Source: Candidatus Zhuqueibacterota bacterium
GTDB lineage: Bacteria; Zhuqueibacterota; Zhuqueibacteria; Residuimicrobiales; Krinioviventaceae
Assembly: GCA_016934825.1 (NCBI GenBank)
Contig: JAFGSB010000027.1
Location: forward strand, 1-32,120
Direction: 5' to 3'
DNA length: 32,120 nucleotides
Position numbers and translations under genes: made by a program. The notes beneath the pieces are model-generated. The model saw nothing but the letters and a program-made list of their open reading frames with translations, was not told the origin of the DNA and ran no database searches. Shown in pieces: positions 7,024 through 14,888 of the stretch (position 1 is its first letter; every line of letters starts with the position of its first letter).

Positions 7024-8298
7024 ATGAACAAAATATTTGCACTCGTAGATTGCGATAATTTTTACGTATCCTGTGAAAGGGCGTTTAACCCGTTGTTGCG
7101 AAACCGTCCGGTAATTGTTTTGTCCAATAACGACGGCTGCATCATCGCGCGCTCCAACGAGGTCAAAAAACTGGATATCCCGTTCGGCCAGCCATATTTC
7201 AAGTGCAGGGATAAAATTGACAAGTATAATATCGCGGTATTCTCATCAAATTATGAATTGTACGGTGATATGTCCCGTCGGGTCATGGAAATACTGGCTC
7301 AATATGCCGTCGATATAGAAATTTATTCTATTGACGAAGCCTTTCTGGAACTTGAAGGCCTGAGACGTTTTGATCTTGATGATTACGTGAAAGAAATCCA
7401 GCAATATGTATTAAAGGGAACCGGTATTCCCGTTACCATAGGGGTGGGCCAGACAAAAACACTGGCCAAAATCGCTAGCAAATACGCAAAAAAGAACAAA
7501 CAAAACAATGGCGTTTTTAACATTGTGAATCATCCGGATATCGATCAATTACTGGAAGCCGTTCCCGTTGAGGACATCTGGGGAATCGGGCGGCAATATG
7601 ATAAATTTCTCAAAAAGTTCAATATTAATAATGCCCGGCAACTCAAATACTCCCAGGACAAGTGGATAAAAAAACACATGACGGTCGTGGGTCTACGGAC
7701 CGTATGGGAATTGCGTGGTCAGTCGTGCCTGTCCCTTGAACAACTTCCTCCCGCCAAAAAGGAGATTTGCACATCCCGAAGTTTTGGCAGACCCGTAGAG
7801 TCGCTTCAGGAAATGAGGGAAGCCATTGCCGATTACGCCAGCCGCGCCGCGGAAAAACTCCGTAAACAAAATTCGGCCGCTTCCATATTACAGGTTTTTT
7901 TGACGACCAACCGGTTCAAAGAAGAACCGCAATACTTTAATTGTATTCAGATTAATTTACCAACACCGACAAACGATACCTTTGAAATCGTCAAATTTGC
8001 CTGTAAAGGCATCGAAAAAATCTATCGGTCAAATTTTCGTTATAAAAAAGCGGGAGTGTTTTTAACAGATATCGTATCAAAGGACAATATTCAGACAAAT
8101 TTATTCGATACATATCCCAACAGGGATAAATCAAAAAAGTTAATGGAAATTCTGGACCTGTTGAATTCAAAATACGGCTCGAAAACGGTACAAGTGGCTT
8201 CCGCCGGGACGAAAAAAGAATGGGCCATGCAGCGAAATTTAAAATCAAATAATTACACGACCAACTGGGACGAATTGCCCAGAGTTAAAGCAAAATAG
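7024..8298 (+). CDS. umuC: UmuC, Y-family translesion DNA polymerase
   Basis: This 424-residue protein is the catalytic subunit of the polymerase V type, copying damaged templates. The Y-family catalytic motifs are intact: ALVDCDNFYVSCERAF at residues 5-20 with the first metal-binding Asp, and IYSIDEAFLELEG near residue 100 with the Asp-Glu pair. Helix-hairpin-helix (VPVEDIWGIGRQY, about 180) and little-finger regions follow. The end (QTNLFD, then KKEWAMQRN) is the UmuC-specific tail. Full length for the family. It follows umuD in the usual order and ends in TAG, which shows that TAG is an ordinary stop in this genome. Confidence 0.97.
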   Translation: MNKIFALVDCDNFYVSCERAFNPLLRNRPVIVLSNNDGCIIARSNEVKKLDIPFGQPYFKCRDKIDKYNIAVFSSNYELYGDMSRRVMEILAQYAVDIEIYSIDEAFLELEGLRRFDLDDYVKEIQQYVLKGTGIPVTIGVGQTKTLAKIASKYAKKNKQNNGVFNIVNHPDIDQLLEAVPVEDIWGIGRQYDKFLKKFNINNARQLKYSQDKWIKKHMTVVGLRTVWELRGQSCLSLEQLPPAKKEICTSRSFGRPVESLQEMREAIADYASRAAEKLRKQNSAASILQVFLTTNRFKEEPQYFNCIQINLPTPTNDTFEIVKFACKGIEKIYRSNFRYKKAGVFLTDIVSKDNIQTNLFDTYPNRDKSKKLMEILDLLNSKYGSKTVQVASAGTKKEWAMQRNLKSNNYTTNWDELPRVKAK

Positions 8299-8322
8299 TT
8301 AGCTCAAATAATCAACGCCGGC

Positions 8323-8391
8323 ATGAATATAAAACGAAAAACATAGCTTCTTTTACTGTTTACCGGATTATTTATTTACCTGTTGTGTTCA
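8323..8391 (+). other. Interrupted lipoprotein signal sequence (in-frame TAG)
   Basis: An ATG at 8323 opens MNIKRKT, then a TAG at 8344-8346. The same frame then reads LLLLFTGLFIYLLCS and runs without another stop into the DUF4380-type gene. A basic n-region, a hydrophobic core and a cysteine is the shape of a lipoprotein signal, although the residues before Cys are not a textbook lipobox. The nonsense codon would prevent export of the downstream protein unless it is read through or is a sequencing error. Confidence 0.6.
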
Positions 8392-8442
8392 GATAAATCG
8401 GACATAATAAAACTCGCAATGAGTAAAGAGGGAGTACCAACA

Positions 8443-9363
8443 ATGAAATGGAACGGCTGGGAAAATTGCCGGCAAATTAGCAACGCGACTGCTCAGGTTA
8501 TCGTTGTGCCGGCCATCGGCCGCATCATGTATTATGGTTTTAAAAACGGGGCAAATATATTATGGAATGATACCGGATTGTATGGTAAAACTTTACCGAC
8601 CGATTTACATACGGTTAAAAACTGGTCAAATTTCGGCGGTGATAAAGTATGGCCGACGCAAGAGGACGATTTCGGAAAAATCAACGGTATGGAATGGCCG
8701 CCGGACCCCTGGTTCGACGGCGCACCACATACCGTTAAAGAACTTGAGAACAGCGTGGAAATCACCAGTCCGGTCAGTGATTACTGCGGCGCACAGAGCA
8801 TCAGGGAAATTCATCTTGACAAAGAAAGCAGCCGGCTGACAATTCATCAGCGAATTAAAAAAATAAAAAAGGCACATCTCAGGTCCGTCGAGCCTGTCAG
8901 GTATACTATCTGGAACGTCACACAGATAAAATCTCCTTTACAGGCTTTGTTCAATTTAAATCCGGACAGCAAGTTTTCTGACGGATACTATATTTTCCCC
9001 ACCGGCGGCGCGGAAAATTTTTGCGTCGATGGGAGCACGGGGATATTAGTCCCACATATCTCCAGGGAGCAAAAAGCCGGTGCGGATTCCGGTAAATGGC
9101 TGGCGGCTATTATCGACAATGTTGTATTCGGTGAATTTTTCGCCTTTGATCCCGGCGGCGCCTATCCGGATAACGGCTGCAGCGCCGAGGTTTATACATC
9201 AGGCGATTATACAGAGATCGAATTATTAAGTGCTATGCAGTACCTGGATATTAACGAAGAAATATCTTTTACCATAGAATGGGAACTATATCGATTGCCG
9301 GAGAACGCAAAATCGGAGGCAGATAAACGGAAAGCTGCGGTAGAATGGCTGAACAGTAAATAA
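8443..9363 (+). CDS. DUF4380-type, mutarotase-like protein (signal peptide lost)
   Basis: The 306-residue product resembles the DUF4380 family, which has a galactose-mutarotase-like beta-sandwich of unknown activity. The opening WNGWENCRQISNATAQVIVVP, then AIGRIMYYGFKNGANILW, and the WSNFGGDKVWPTQED segment near residue 65 are typical. I choose the ATG at 8443 because GAGGGAG lies eight bases upstream. TTG 8383 and ATG 8419 are in frame but lack such a site. The same frame runs back through a broken lipoprotein signal (8323-8391), so the ancestral form was probably exported. The current product would be cytoplasmic or the gene is decaying, though the body has no internal stop. A secreted FG-GAP lipoprotein follows 66 bases later. 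Substrate unknown. Confidence 0.75.
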   Translation: MKWNGWENCRQISNATAQVIVVPAIGRIMYYGFKNGANILWNDTGLYGKTLPTDLHTVKNWSNFGGDKVWPTQEDDFGKINGMEWPPDPWFDGAPHTVKELENSVEITSPVSDYCGAQSIREIHLDKESSRLTIHQRIKKIKKAHLRSVEPVRYTIWNVTQIKSPLQALFNLNPDSKFSDGYYIFPTGGAENFCVDGSTGILVPHISREQKAGADSGKWLAAIIDNVVFGEFFAFDPGGAYPDNGCSAEVYTSGDYTEIELLSAMQYLDINEEISFTIEWELYRLPENAKSEADKRKAAVEWLNSK

Positions 9364-9429
9364 TCGATAATTTAAACAAATGTATAAAAATTTTTTCGTC
9401 ATATTAAAACCTGTGAAGGAGTACGGTTC

Positions 9430-10644
9430 ATGAAAACAAAATTGTTTATAATTTTTTTATTTTTTGTTCTCTTTCTGGCGGCAGGTTGTGTAGAAAAAAA
9501 ACAAAAGGTCCAGTGGAAACATCTTTCAAGCGCGAACGGGGAAATTGAGGTGCCGAATAGCGGCTCGCAACAAACGGCAACCGCAGTATTTGATATCGAT
9601 AAAGACGGGGATAACGACTTTATCATCACCGAACGGACAAAAGCGCCAGCGGTTGTCTGGTATCAAAGAAATGACGACGGCTGGAAACGGTTCGTTCTGG
9701 ACAAAGATGCGTTACGAATCGAGGCGGGATCCGCAATCGAGGATATTGACGGCGACGGAGACCAGGATGTTGTCTTTGCCGGAGATTCCGGCAGTAATAT
9801 GGTCTGGTGGTGGGAGAATCCATACCCGGATCATGATCCGGCTAAACCATGGAACCGGTACGAAATAAAAAACAGCGGCAAAACCAAACACCATGATCAG
9901 TTGTTCGGTGATTTTGACGGCGACAGCAGACCCGAACTAATTTTCTGGAACCAGAATGATCTGACACTTTTTCTTGCGGAAATACCGGCGGAGCCGAAAA
10001 CCGCCGGTGAATGGGAAAAAACCGCCATATATACATACGAGGATACCGCTGAGCCCCCGCAGCGCGGCGCTTATCCCCAATGGAAAGGCGTCAATGAACA
10101 TGAAGGTCTCACCAAAATGGATATCGACGGCGACGGTAAACCGGATATTATCGGCGGAGGCCTCTGGTTTAAACATATAAGCGGAAACACATTTATCGCA
10201 CATGTTATTGACGACACATATGCTTTCTCACGTTCAGCGGCAGGACAGCTTGTCCATGGCGGTCCGCCCGAAGTGATACTTGTTGTCGGTGACGGCAGGG
10301 CGCCTTTGGTAATGTATGAGTTACGGGAAAATCAATGGAAAGATAAAATACTGATCGACGCCATTCAGGACGGACACAGTCTGGATTTGATTGATTTCAA
10401 CGGCGACGACAACCTGGATATATTTATCGCCGAAATGCAGCTTGGCGAATTTAAAAATGCAAAAATTCGTATATTGCTGGGTGACGGCGCTGGTAATTTC
10501 ACAACTACATTAGTCGACAGCGGTTTTGGTCTGCATGAATCCCGTATAGCCGACCTGGACGGCGACGGCGATTACGATATACTCGGCAAACCATATAACT
10601 GGAAAACGCCAAGACTGGATATTTGGCTGAATACAACAAAGTAA
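9430..10644 (+). CDS. FG-GAP/VCBS repeat lipoprotein
   Basis: This 404-residue protein starts with a clear lipoprotein signal (MKTKLFIIFLFFVLFLAAGC, lipidated Cys20) and would sit in the outer or inner membrane facing the periplasm or the surface. The rest is a run of calcium-binding loops of the FG-GAP/VCBS type, probably a beta-propeller: DIDKDGDND near 50, DIDGDGDQD near 107, DFDGDSRPE near 160, DIDGDGKPD near 235, DFNGDDNLD near 325 and DLDGDGDYD near 378. There is no catalytic motif that I recognise, so carbohydrate or protein binding is the usual guess. The start has AAGGAG eight bases upstream. It follows the DUF4380-type gene by 66 bases and may be co-transcribed with it. Confidence 0.88.
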   Translation: MKTKLFIIFLFFVLFLAAGCVEKKQKVQWKHLSSANGEIEVPNSGSQQTATAVFDIDKDGDNDFIITERTKAPAVVWYQRNDDGWKRFVLDKDALRIEAGSAIEDIDGDGDQDVVFAGDSGSNMVWWWENPYPDHDPAKPWNRYEIKNSGKTKHHDQLFGDFDGDSRPELIFWNQNDLTLFLAEIPAEPKTAGEWEKTAIYTYEDTAEPPQRGAYPQWKGVNEHEGLTKMDIDGDGKPDIIGGGLWFKHISGNTFIAHVIDDTYAFSRSAAGQLVHGGPPEVILVVGDGRAPLVMYELRENQWKDKILIDAIQDGHSLDLIDFNGDDNLDIFIAEMQLGEFKNAKIRILLGDGAGNFTTTLVDSGFGLHESRIADLDGDGDYDILGKPYNWKTPRLDIWLNTTK

Positions 10645-14246: not shown

Positions 14247-14888
14247 ATGCTGGTCAAACAATTCAGAACCGGCGGGGATAGAAATTTCGGCTATCTTGCA
14301 GCGGATGACACGACCAAAATGGCCGTTGTTGTTGATCCATCCTATTCACCCGACATGATCGTCGATTTTGCAGATGAAAATGGTTACAAGATTAATTATA
14401 TTTTCATAACACATAACCATTATGACCACAAAAACGGCAATAAGGAAATTGAAAAACGGACCGGAATAAAGCCCCTCTTTTTCGGGAACAAGGACCCAAA
14501 AACAAATACACTGATTATGAACGGCGCCGTATTACCTCTTGGCAGCCTGGAAATCAAAATTATCCACACCCCCGGCCATACGGATGATTCAATATGTGTT
14601 TTTGTCGGCGACGCAGTTTTTACCGGTGATACGCTGTTCGTCGGAAAAATCGGTGGTACGGATTTCGGGAGGCAGGCTAAAACGGAATATGAATCACTGC
14701 ATAATAAATTAATGACATTGCCGGATGAAACCAGGATATTTCCGGGACATGATTACGGCACCGCCCCGGAATCGACCATTGCCCACGAAAAAAAGACCAA
14801 TCCGTTTCTTGTACAGCCGGATTTTAATTCTTTTTTGCATCTGAAAATGAACTGGGCCGAATATAAACGCGAACATGGGATCCAATAG
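14247..14888 (+). CDS. Metallo-beta-lactamase fold hydrolase, glyoxalase II-like
   Basis: This 213-residue cytoplasmic protein has the metallo-beta-lactamase fold of glyoxalase II and persulfide-dioxygenase relatives. Metal ligands are all visible: His56, His58, Asp60 and His61 in [11 protein letters not shown], His111 in HTPGHTDD, Asp128 in FTGDTLF and His168 in FPGHDYG. The [11 protein letters not shown] segment is typical of the glyoxalase II-like branch. No glutathione-specific C-terminal helical domain is obvious, so the substrate thioester is uncertain, and a persulfide-type activity cannot be excluded. The start has GAGG nine bases upstream, and the stop is TAG. It is convergent with the large CotH gene. 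Confidence 0.92.

Follow-up and report, generated by a model that had tools for sequence, protein, structure and literature searches.

A TAG codon inside the signal peptide of a DUF4380-like gene and the possible loss of export of a mutarotase-fold protein

Introduction

What becomes of an exported protein when a stop codon appears within its signal peptide? This question is raised by a locus in the window, by which we mean the whole stretch of 32,120 nucleotides from a Candidatus Zhuqueibacterota bacterium that was analysed here. At this locus a frame that opens with a short basic peptide is interrupted by a TAG at its eighth codon, and then continues through a signal-like segment into a gene for a mutarotase-like protein. 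A preliminary description, made from the letters alone, suggested that a secreted protein may have become cytoplasmic by way of an internal start, or that the base call is wrong. Here we compare the locus with its relatives, and weigh these readings and several others against one another.

Results

A signal peptide split by an in-frame TAG

The ATG at 8323, the TAG at 8344-8346 and the TAA at 9361-9363 lie in one common frame, which is open after the TAG and translates as MNIKRKT*LLLLFTGLFIYLLCSDKSD... (Table 1). MNIKRKT and the TAG are followed by LLLLFTGLFIYLLC and then by an open frame up to the TAA, so that the stop separates the start and basic residues from a hydrophobic segment that ends in a Cys. 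Coordinates and translation thus agree with the preliminary description, in which an in-frame TAG breaks a lipoprotein-like signal in a frame running into a mutarotase-like gene. Of the elements that define a lipoprotein signal (a start, a basic n-region, a core and a Cys in one unbroken frame), only the unbroken frame is missing, the n-region being split from the core. The residue before a lipidated Cys is usually Gly, Ala or Ser. It is Leu in the window and Ala, Asn, Met or Gly in the relatives (Met in four, Asn in one), and the Leu found here, like the Met or Asn of those relatives, appears to fall outside the usual lipidation motif. Judging by their sequences, the form made by the near relatives is most likely exported, as a lipoprotein.

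Table 1. Coordinates of the interrupted frame, its parts and its upstream neighbour in the window.
Feature	Position	Strand	Observation
MNIKRKT: former start and basic n-region of the signal peptide, reduced to a frame of 7 codons	8323..8343	+	Aligns with the signal peptide of L003 without gaps; ribosome site weak (-1.3 kcal/mol)
In-frame TAG, codon 8	8344..8346	+	L003, the orthologue of the same genus, has the sense codon ATA here
Hydrophobic core of the former signal (LLLLFTGLFIYLL)	8347..8385	+	From any start downstream of the TAG, basic residues ahead of the core would be lost
Cys, presumed lipidation site	8386..8388	+	Aligns with the L003 Cys
Linker from signal to domain, still open	8389..8442	+	
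GAGGGAG, Shine-Dalgarno-like for ATG 8443	8428..8434	+	-8.0 kcal/mol; overlaps Lys-Glu-Gly-Val codons
Intact DUF4380-like domain with predicted galactose-mutarotase fold, 306 aa	8443..9363	+	Internal ATG 8443 to TAA
umuC, upstream neighbour, TAG-terminated	7024..8298	+	Same neighbour in the sister species

As a check on chance, we inspected 215 stop-to-stop frames of at least 200 codons in 336 kb of the window's genome. In six of them (6/215) the preceding stop has an ATG no more than 12 codons ahead of it, and there is a signal-like peptide as well. The five other frames have an ATG with basic residues after the stop and so look like ordinary genes; among the six, only at 8323 is the core cut off from every ATG with basic residues. 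The pattern at 8323 exceeds chance, and homology is a stronger argument than this frame count.

Relatives with and without a signal

Searches covered relatives, order, class and phylum (82 phylum genomes), together with one scan of named genomes. Matches at E <= 1e-25 occur in 10 of the 82 phylum genomes, the window's own included, and the named-genome scan gave one relative, L015 (Latescibacterota). The 11 other copies considered below (L003-L008, L010, L075-L077 and L015) do not include L002, L009 and L011-L014, six paralogues with longer open frames (522-552 aa). L003-L008 are 52-67% identical to the window protein. The same-genus copy, L003 (67% identity), also follows umuC within a conserved block of genes, and is thus the syntenic orthologue. 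Its signal is complete, has 20 codons between Met and Cys as in the window, aligns without gaps, and has ATA (Ile) in the column of the TAG, so that the alignment with close relatives proposed in the preliminary description finds codon 8 to be sense.

The equal Met-Cys spacing in the window and L003 indicates that the stop arose by substitution and not by a single insertion or deletion, and for the same reason we rejected a single-indel sequencing error. An error would therefore have to be a substitution in the consensus, with codon 8 sense in reality and the protein ordinarily exported. Such an error is possible because the window corresponds to one entire contig (C63) in a draft assembly of metagenome type (5.39 Mb, 179 contigs, 95.39% complete); in addition, the signal core and Cys are kept and the body of the protein is constrained, as expected of an unbroken gene. 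However, an error leaves the weak ribosome site at 8323 unexplained, though weak sites are common here. Overall, we regard a consensus error as somewhat unlikely, if a serious contender.

Signal peptides were judged by eye in all copies. One free of stops is present in 8 of the 11 (L003-L008, L010 and L015); a Cys follows the core in seven of these eight, and L015 has an ordinary-looking signal peptide. L003-L008 thus share the domain with the window and differ from it in that their signal is intact. The remaining three copies, L075, L076 and L077, are all distant (40-47% identity); they belong to a single other family of the phylum and begin at the domain, as would a product from 8443; no signal remnant was seen upstream of them. 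The preliminary description had named relatives without a signal-like extension as evidence against its reading: the near relatives have one, whereas the three distant copies do not. Since these 3/11 copies are signal-less, an unexported form has a natural precedent, and the architecture of an unexported domain exists. Support at the nodes that place them, in a tree with L002, L012 and L013 as outgroup, is 32-78% (98% for L076 with L077), so that one and several signal losses or gains are indistinguishable.

L075 has no ATG at the start of the domain and seems to start at a TTG behind GGAGG. The sister species also carries a second copy, L010 (G001:C84), which is 42% identical and has a lipoprotein-like signal of its own; no second copy of this kind turned up when the window's genome was searched.

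TAG as a stop codon

Could the TAG be read through, by a suppressor tRNA or by programmed readthrough, so that the exported form is still made? Retention of the signal segment beyond the TAG would fit this. Against it, the genome encodes RF1 (536.4 bits, cut-off 423.25), and TAG terminates 31 of 187 ORFs of at least 200 aa across 336 kb, the next stop following after a median of 9 codons. In the window TAG ends umuC (8296-8298) and a metallo-hydrolase (14886-14888), in keeping with the earlier remark that it is a normal stop here. The stop is also absent from all eight signal-bearing copies. Finally, none of the 42 distinct tRNAs named by ARAGORN has a CTA anticodon, and one partial match at a contig end was read by eye as GAC (43 matches in all). 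These come from scoring 150 of 241 first-look candidates and form an incomplete set, with no Ile-GAT or Ala-TGC, so the absence of a CTA tRNA is not proof. With RF1 present, no CTA tRNA among those scored and TAG a regular stop, we rejected recoding, which the preliminary description had also thought unlikely, and consider readthrough hardly credible. A second release-factor match, L067 (G000:C8), probably encodes release factor 2; it carries the classical frameshift site CTTTGA, closely preceded by GGAGG.

Two candidate starts

Ribosome-site strength was computed as pairing to the 16S tail, which we took to have the standard sequence. The site at ATG 8323 (-1.3 kcal/mol) compares with medians of -4.8 for long-ORF starts and -2.7 for all ATGs, and is equalled or surpassed by 83% of long-ORF starts; long-ORF starts were taken as the first possible start, which biases their strengths to the weak side. 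The eight signal-bearing copies reach -3.0 to -8.6 at their own starts. However, of 11 other gene starts in the window two are weaker than the 8323 site and a third is nearly as weak, and so the weak site alone proves nothing.

The strong internal ribosome site and start noted in the preliminary description are borne out by the computed -8.0 kcal/mol at ATG 8443, a value equalled or exceeded by 4% of all ATGs and 17% of long-ORF starts. GGAG at 8431-8434 ends 8 nt before this ATG, an arrangement (GGAG, 8 nt, ATG) that recurs at the corresponding internal position in the sister species, at -5.9. The seven other signal-bearing copies have no Met at the internal-start position. As the site overlaps the codons of a shared Gly-Val, it may have arisen by coincidence from the coding sequence. 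No promoter-like site was found on the + strand from 8100 to 8443; a scan of 8100-9450 gave five such sites in all, against 3.1 expected.

Age of the stop

The segment after the TAG keeps its uncharged hydrophobic core and Cys. In neutral simulations started from the present letters (4000 runs per point), the segment stays open and hydrophobic and retains its Cys in 50% of runs at 0.05 substitutions per site, a share that falls to 8% at 0.2, 2.7% at 0.3 and less than 0.1% at 1.0. Neutral changes on the window branch amount, very roughly, to 1.4 per site (half of a near-saturated dS of 2.79). Given such low survival, the stop would be recent, or not real, or the segment would still be in use.

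These simulations bear on the possibility that 8443 (or 8419 or 8383) is the native start of a protein whose signal was given up long ago. The strong site at 8443 and the existence of signal-less relatives are consistent with such a history, but the segment after the TAG is still signal-like and aligns without gaps to that of the sister, and the simulation makes an old loss unlikely. We therefore consider a native internal start very improbable.

Constraint on the protein body

Against L003, the 306 codons of the body give a dN of 0.253 and a near-saturated dS of 2.79, hence a dN/dS of 0.090, compared with 0.082 for the cation-efflux gene and 0.091 for cydB; 10 of 14 syntenic pairs have saturated dS and hence no ratio. 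Relative-rate tests with six outgroups counted 22-26 window-only and 16-24 sister-only changes, none of them significant (largest chi-square 2.38). By these measures the body appears constrained.

We then compared conserved positions, in counts that exclude the three signal-less copies. Of 82 columns invariant in the eight signal-bearing copies, the window differs at 5, and the sister, in the matching leave-one-out, at 1 of 78; across the eight, leave-one-out departures are 0, 0, 1, 2, 2, 3, 3 and 23. For the invariant columns of the six closest copies the window departs at 9 of 117 and the sister at 4 of 112 (leave-one-out range 1 to 7). The window branch is also longer than that of the sister (0.37 versus 0.29; 0.31 versus 0.20 in the tree with the paralogue outgroup). 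Together, the changed invariant columns and the longer branch hint at relaxation.

The same observations could be read as gene decay that has just begun, with a genuine stop and little if any useful protein produced. A stop inside the signal, the weak upstream ribosome site at 8323, the 5/82 changed columns and the longer branch would all fit. Set against this are the 306 open codons, the dN/dS of 0.09, the non-significant relative-rate tests and a complete fold that is predicted with confidence (see below). Incipient decay thus seems to us unlikely.

Predicted fold and family

The window protein scores 21.3 bits against PF14315 (DUF4380), below the Pfam gathering cut-off of 29.4. Alignment A1, whose ten members are the window, the eight signal-bearing copies and the long paralogue L002, with the signal-less three excluded, fares better: all ten match PF14315 at E <= 0.001 (best 2.6e-10). 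The label 'DUF4380-type' given in the preliminary description is thus weak for the window protein alone, and we describe this protein as a divergent relative of DUF4380 and do not class it among the members.

The predicted structure of the 306-residue product from 8443 is of high confidence (pLDDT 92.2, pTM 0.90). Foldseek matched this model to mutarotases and aldose 1-epimerases (best E 5.5e-8), and in structure comparison the top four chains gave Z scores of 20.5-22.2 over 236-267 residues, the best being 3ty1_A (Z 22.2, 3.3 Å over 267 residues). The model thus has a galactose-mutarotase-like fold, with a domain predicted to be complete from 8443. Galactose mutarotases and aldose 1-epimerases of solved structure (3ty1, 4bze, 3nre) resemble it in this predicted fold but share 9-12% identity with it, and His is absent from the invariant or nearly invariant columns of A1. 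Catalysis by GalM aldose 1-epimerase uses histidines and a glutamate. The missing conserved His speaks against a GalM-type enzyme, as far as an alignment can tell; sugar binding or another reaction is possible. A search of solved-structure sequences with the A1 profile gave no match up to E = 1, and the term 'DUF4380' was not found in the literature searched.

Neighbouring genes

The DUF4380-like gene is adjoined at 9430-10644 by an FG-GAP-repeat gene with a lipoprotein-like start. This gene is absent among the ORFs of at least 120 aa of the same-genus syntenic block, where the cation-efflux gene is directly next in its place (L068: 10390 to 10498). We took the names umuC, DUF4380 and FG-GAP from Pfam; other neighbours (cydA, cydB, SRAP, umuD-like, cation efflux and so on) were named by reading their sequences.

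Discussion

Taken as a whole, the preliminary reading stands as regards the broken signal, the strong internal start at 8443 and the improbability of recoding, and is qualified by the three distant copies without a signal. The account that we tentatively favour is that a recent base substitution turned codon 8 of the signal peptide into TAG. The exported form could then no longer be made, and translation would most likely begin at 8443, behind its good ribosome site, to yield a 306-residue protein consisting of the complete, unexported domain and residing in the cytoplasm. In this we infer that the TAG is real, that 8443 is used as a start, and that the product is cytoplasmic and active.

A more speculative extension takes up the second in-frame start (GGAG, 8 nt, ATG) that both species of the genus have at the first residue of the domain. 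The gene might make an exported and a cytoplasmic form, and the TAG might have switched off the former, moving a mutarotase-fold protein to the cytoplasm in one step and giving it the architecture of the signal-less copies of the distant family. We think it doubtful that the gene works in this way.

The type of event is ordinary, and the gene is unstudied. If the stop is not real, the locus provides a routine caution for annotation, as a gene caller must start at 8383, 8419 or 8443 and will thereby hide the lost signal. If it is real, the locus would offer a clean natural case in which the change of one codon has possibly relocated an exported protein, and one that could be compared both with the sister species, where the exported form is intact, and with a distant family, whose forms lack a signal.
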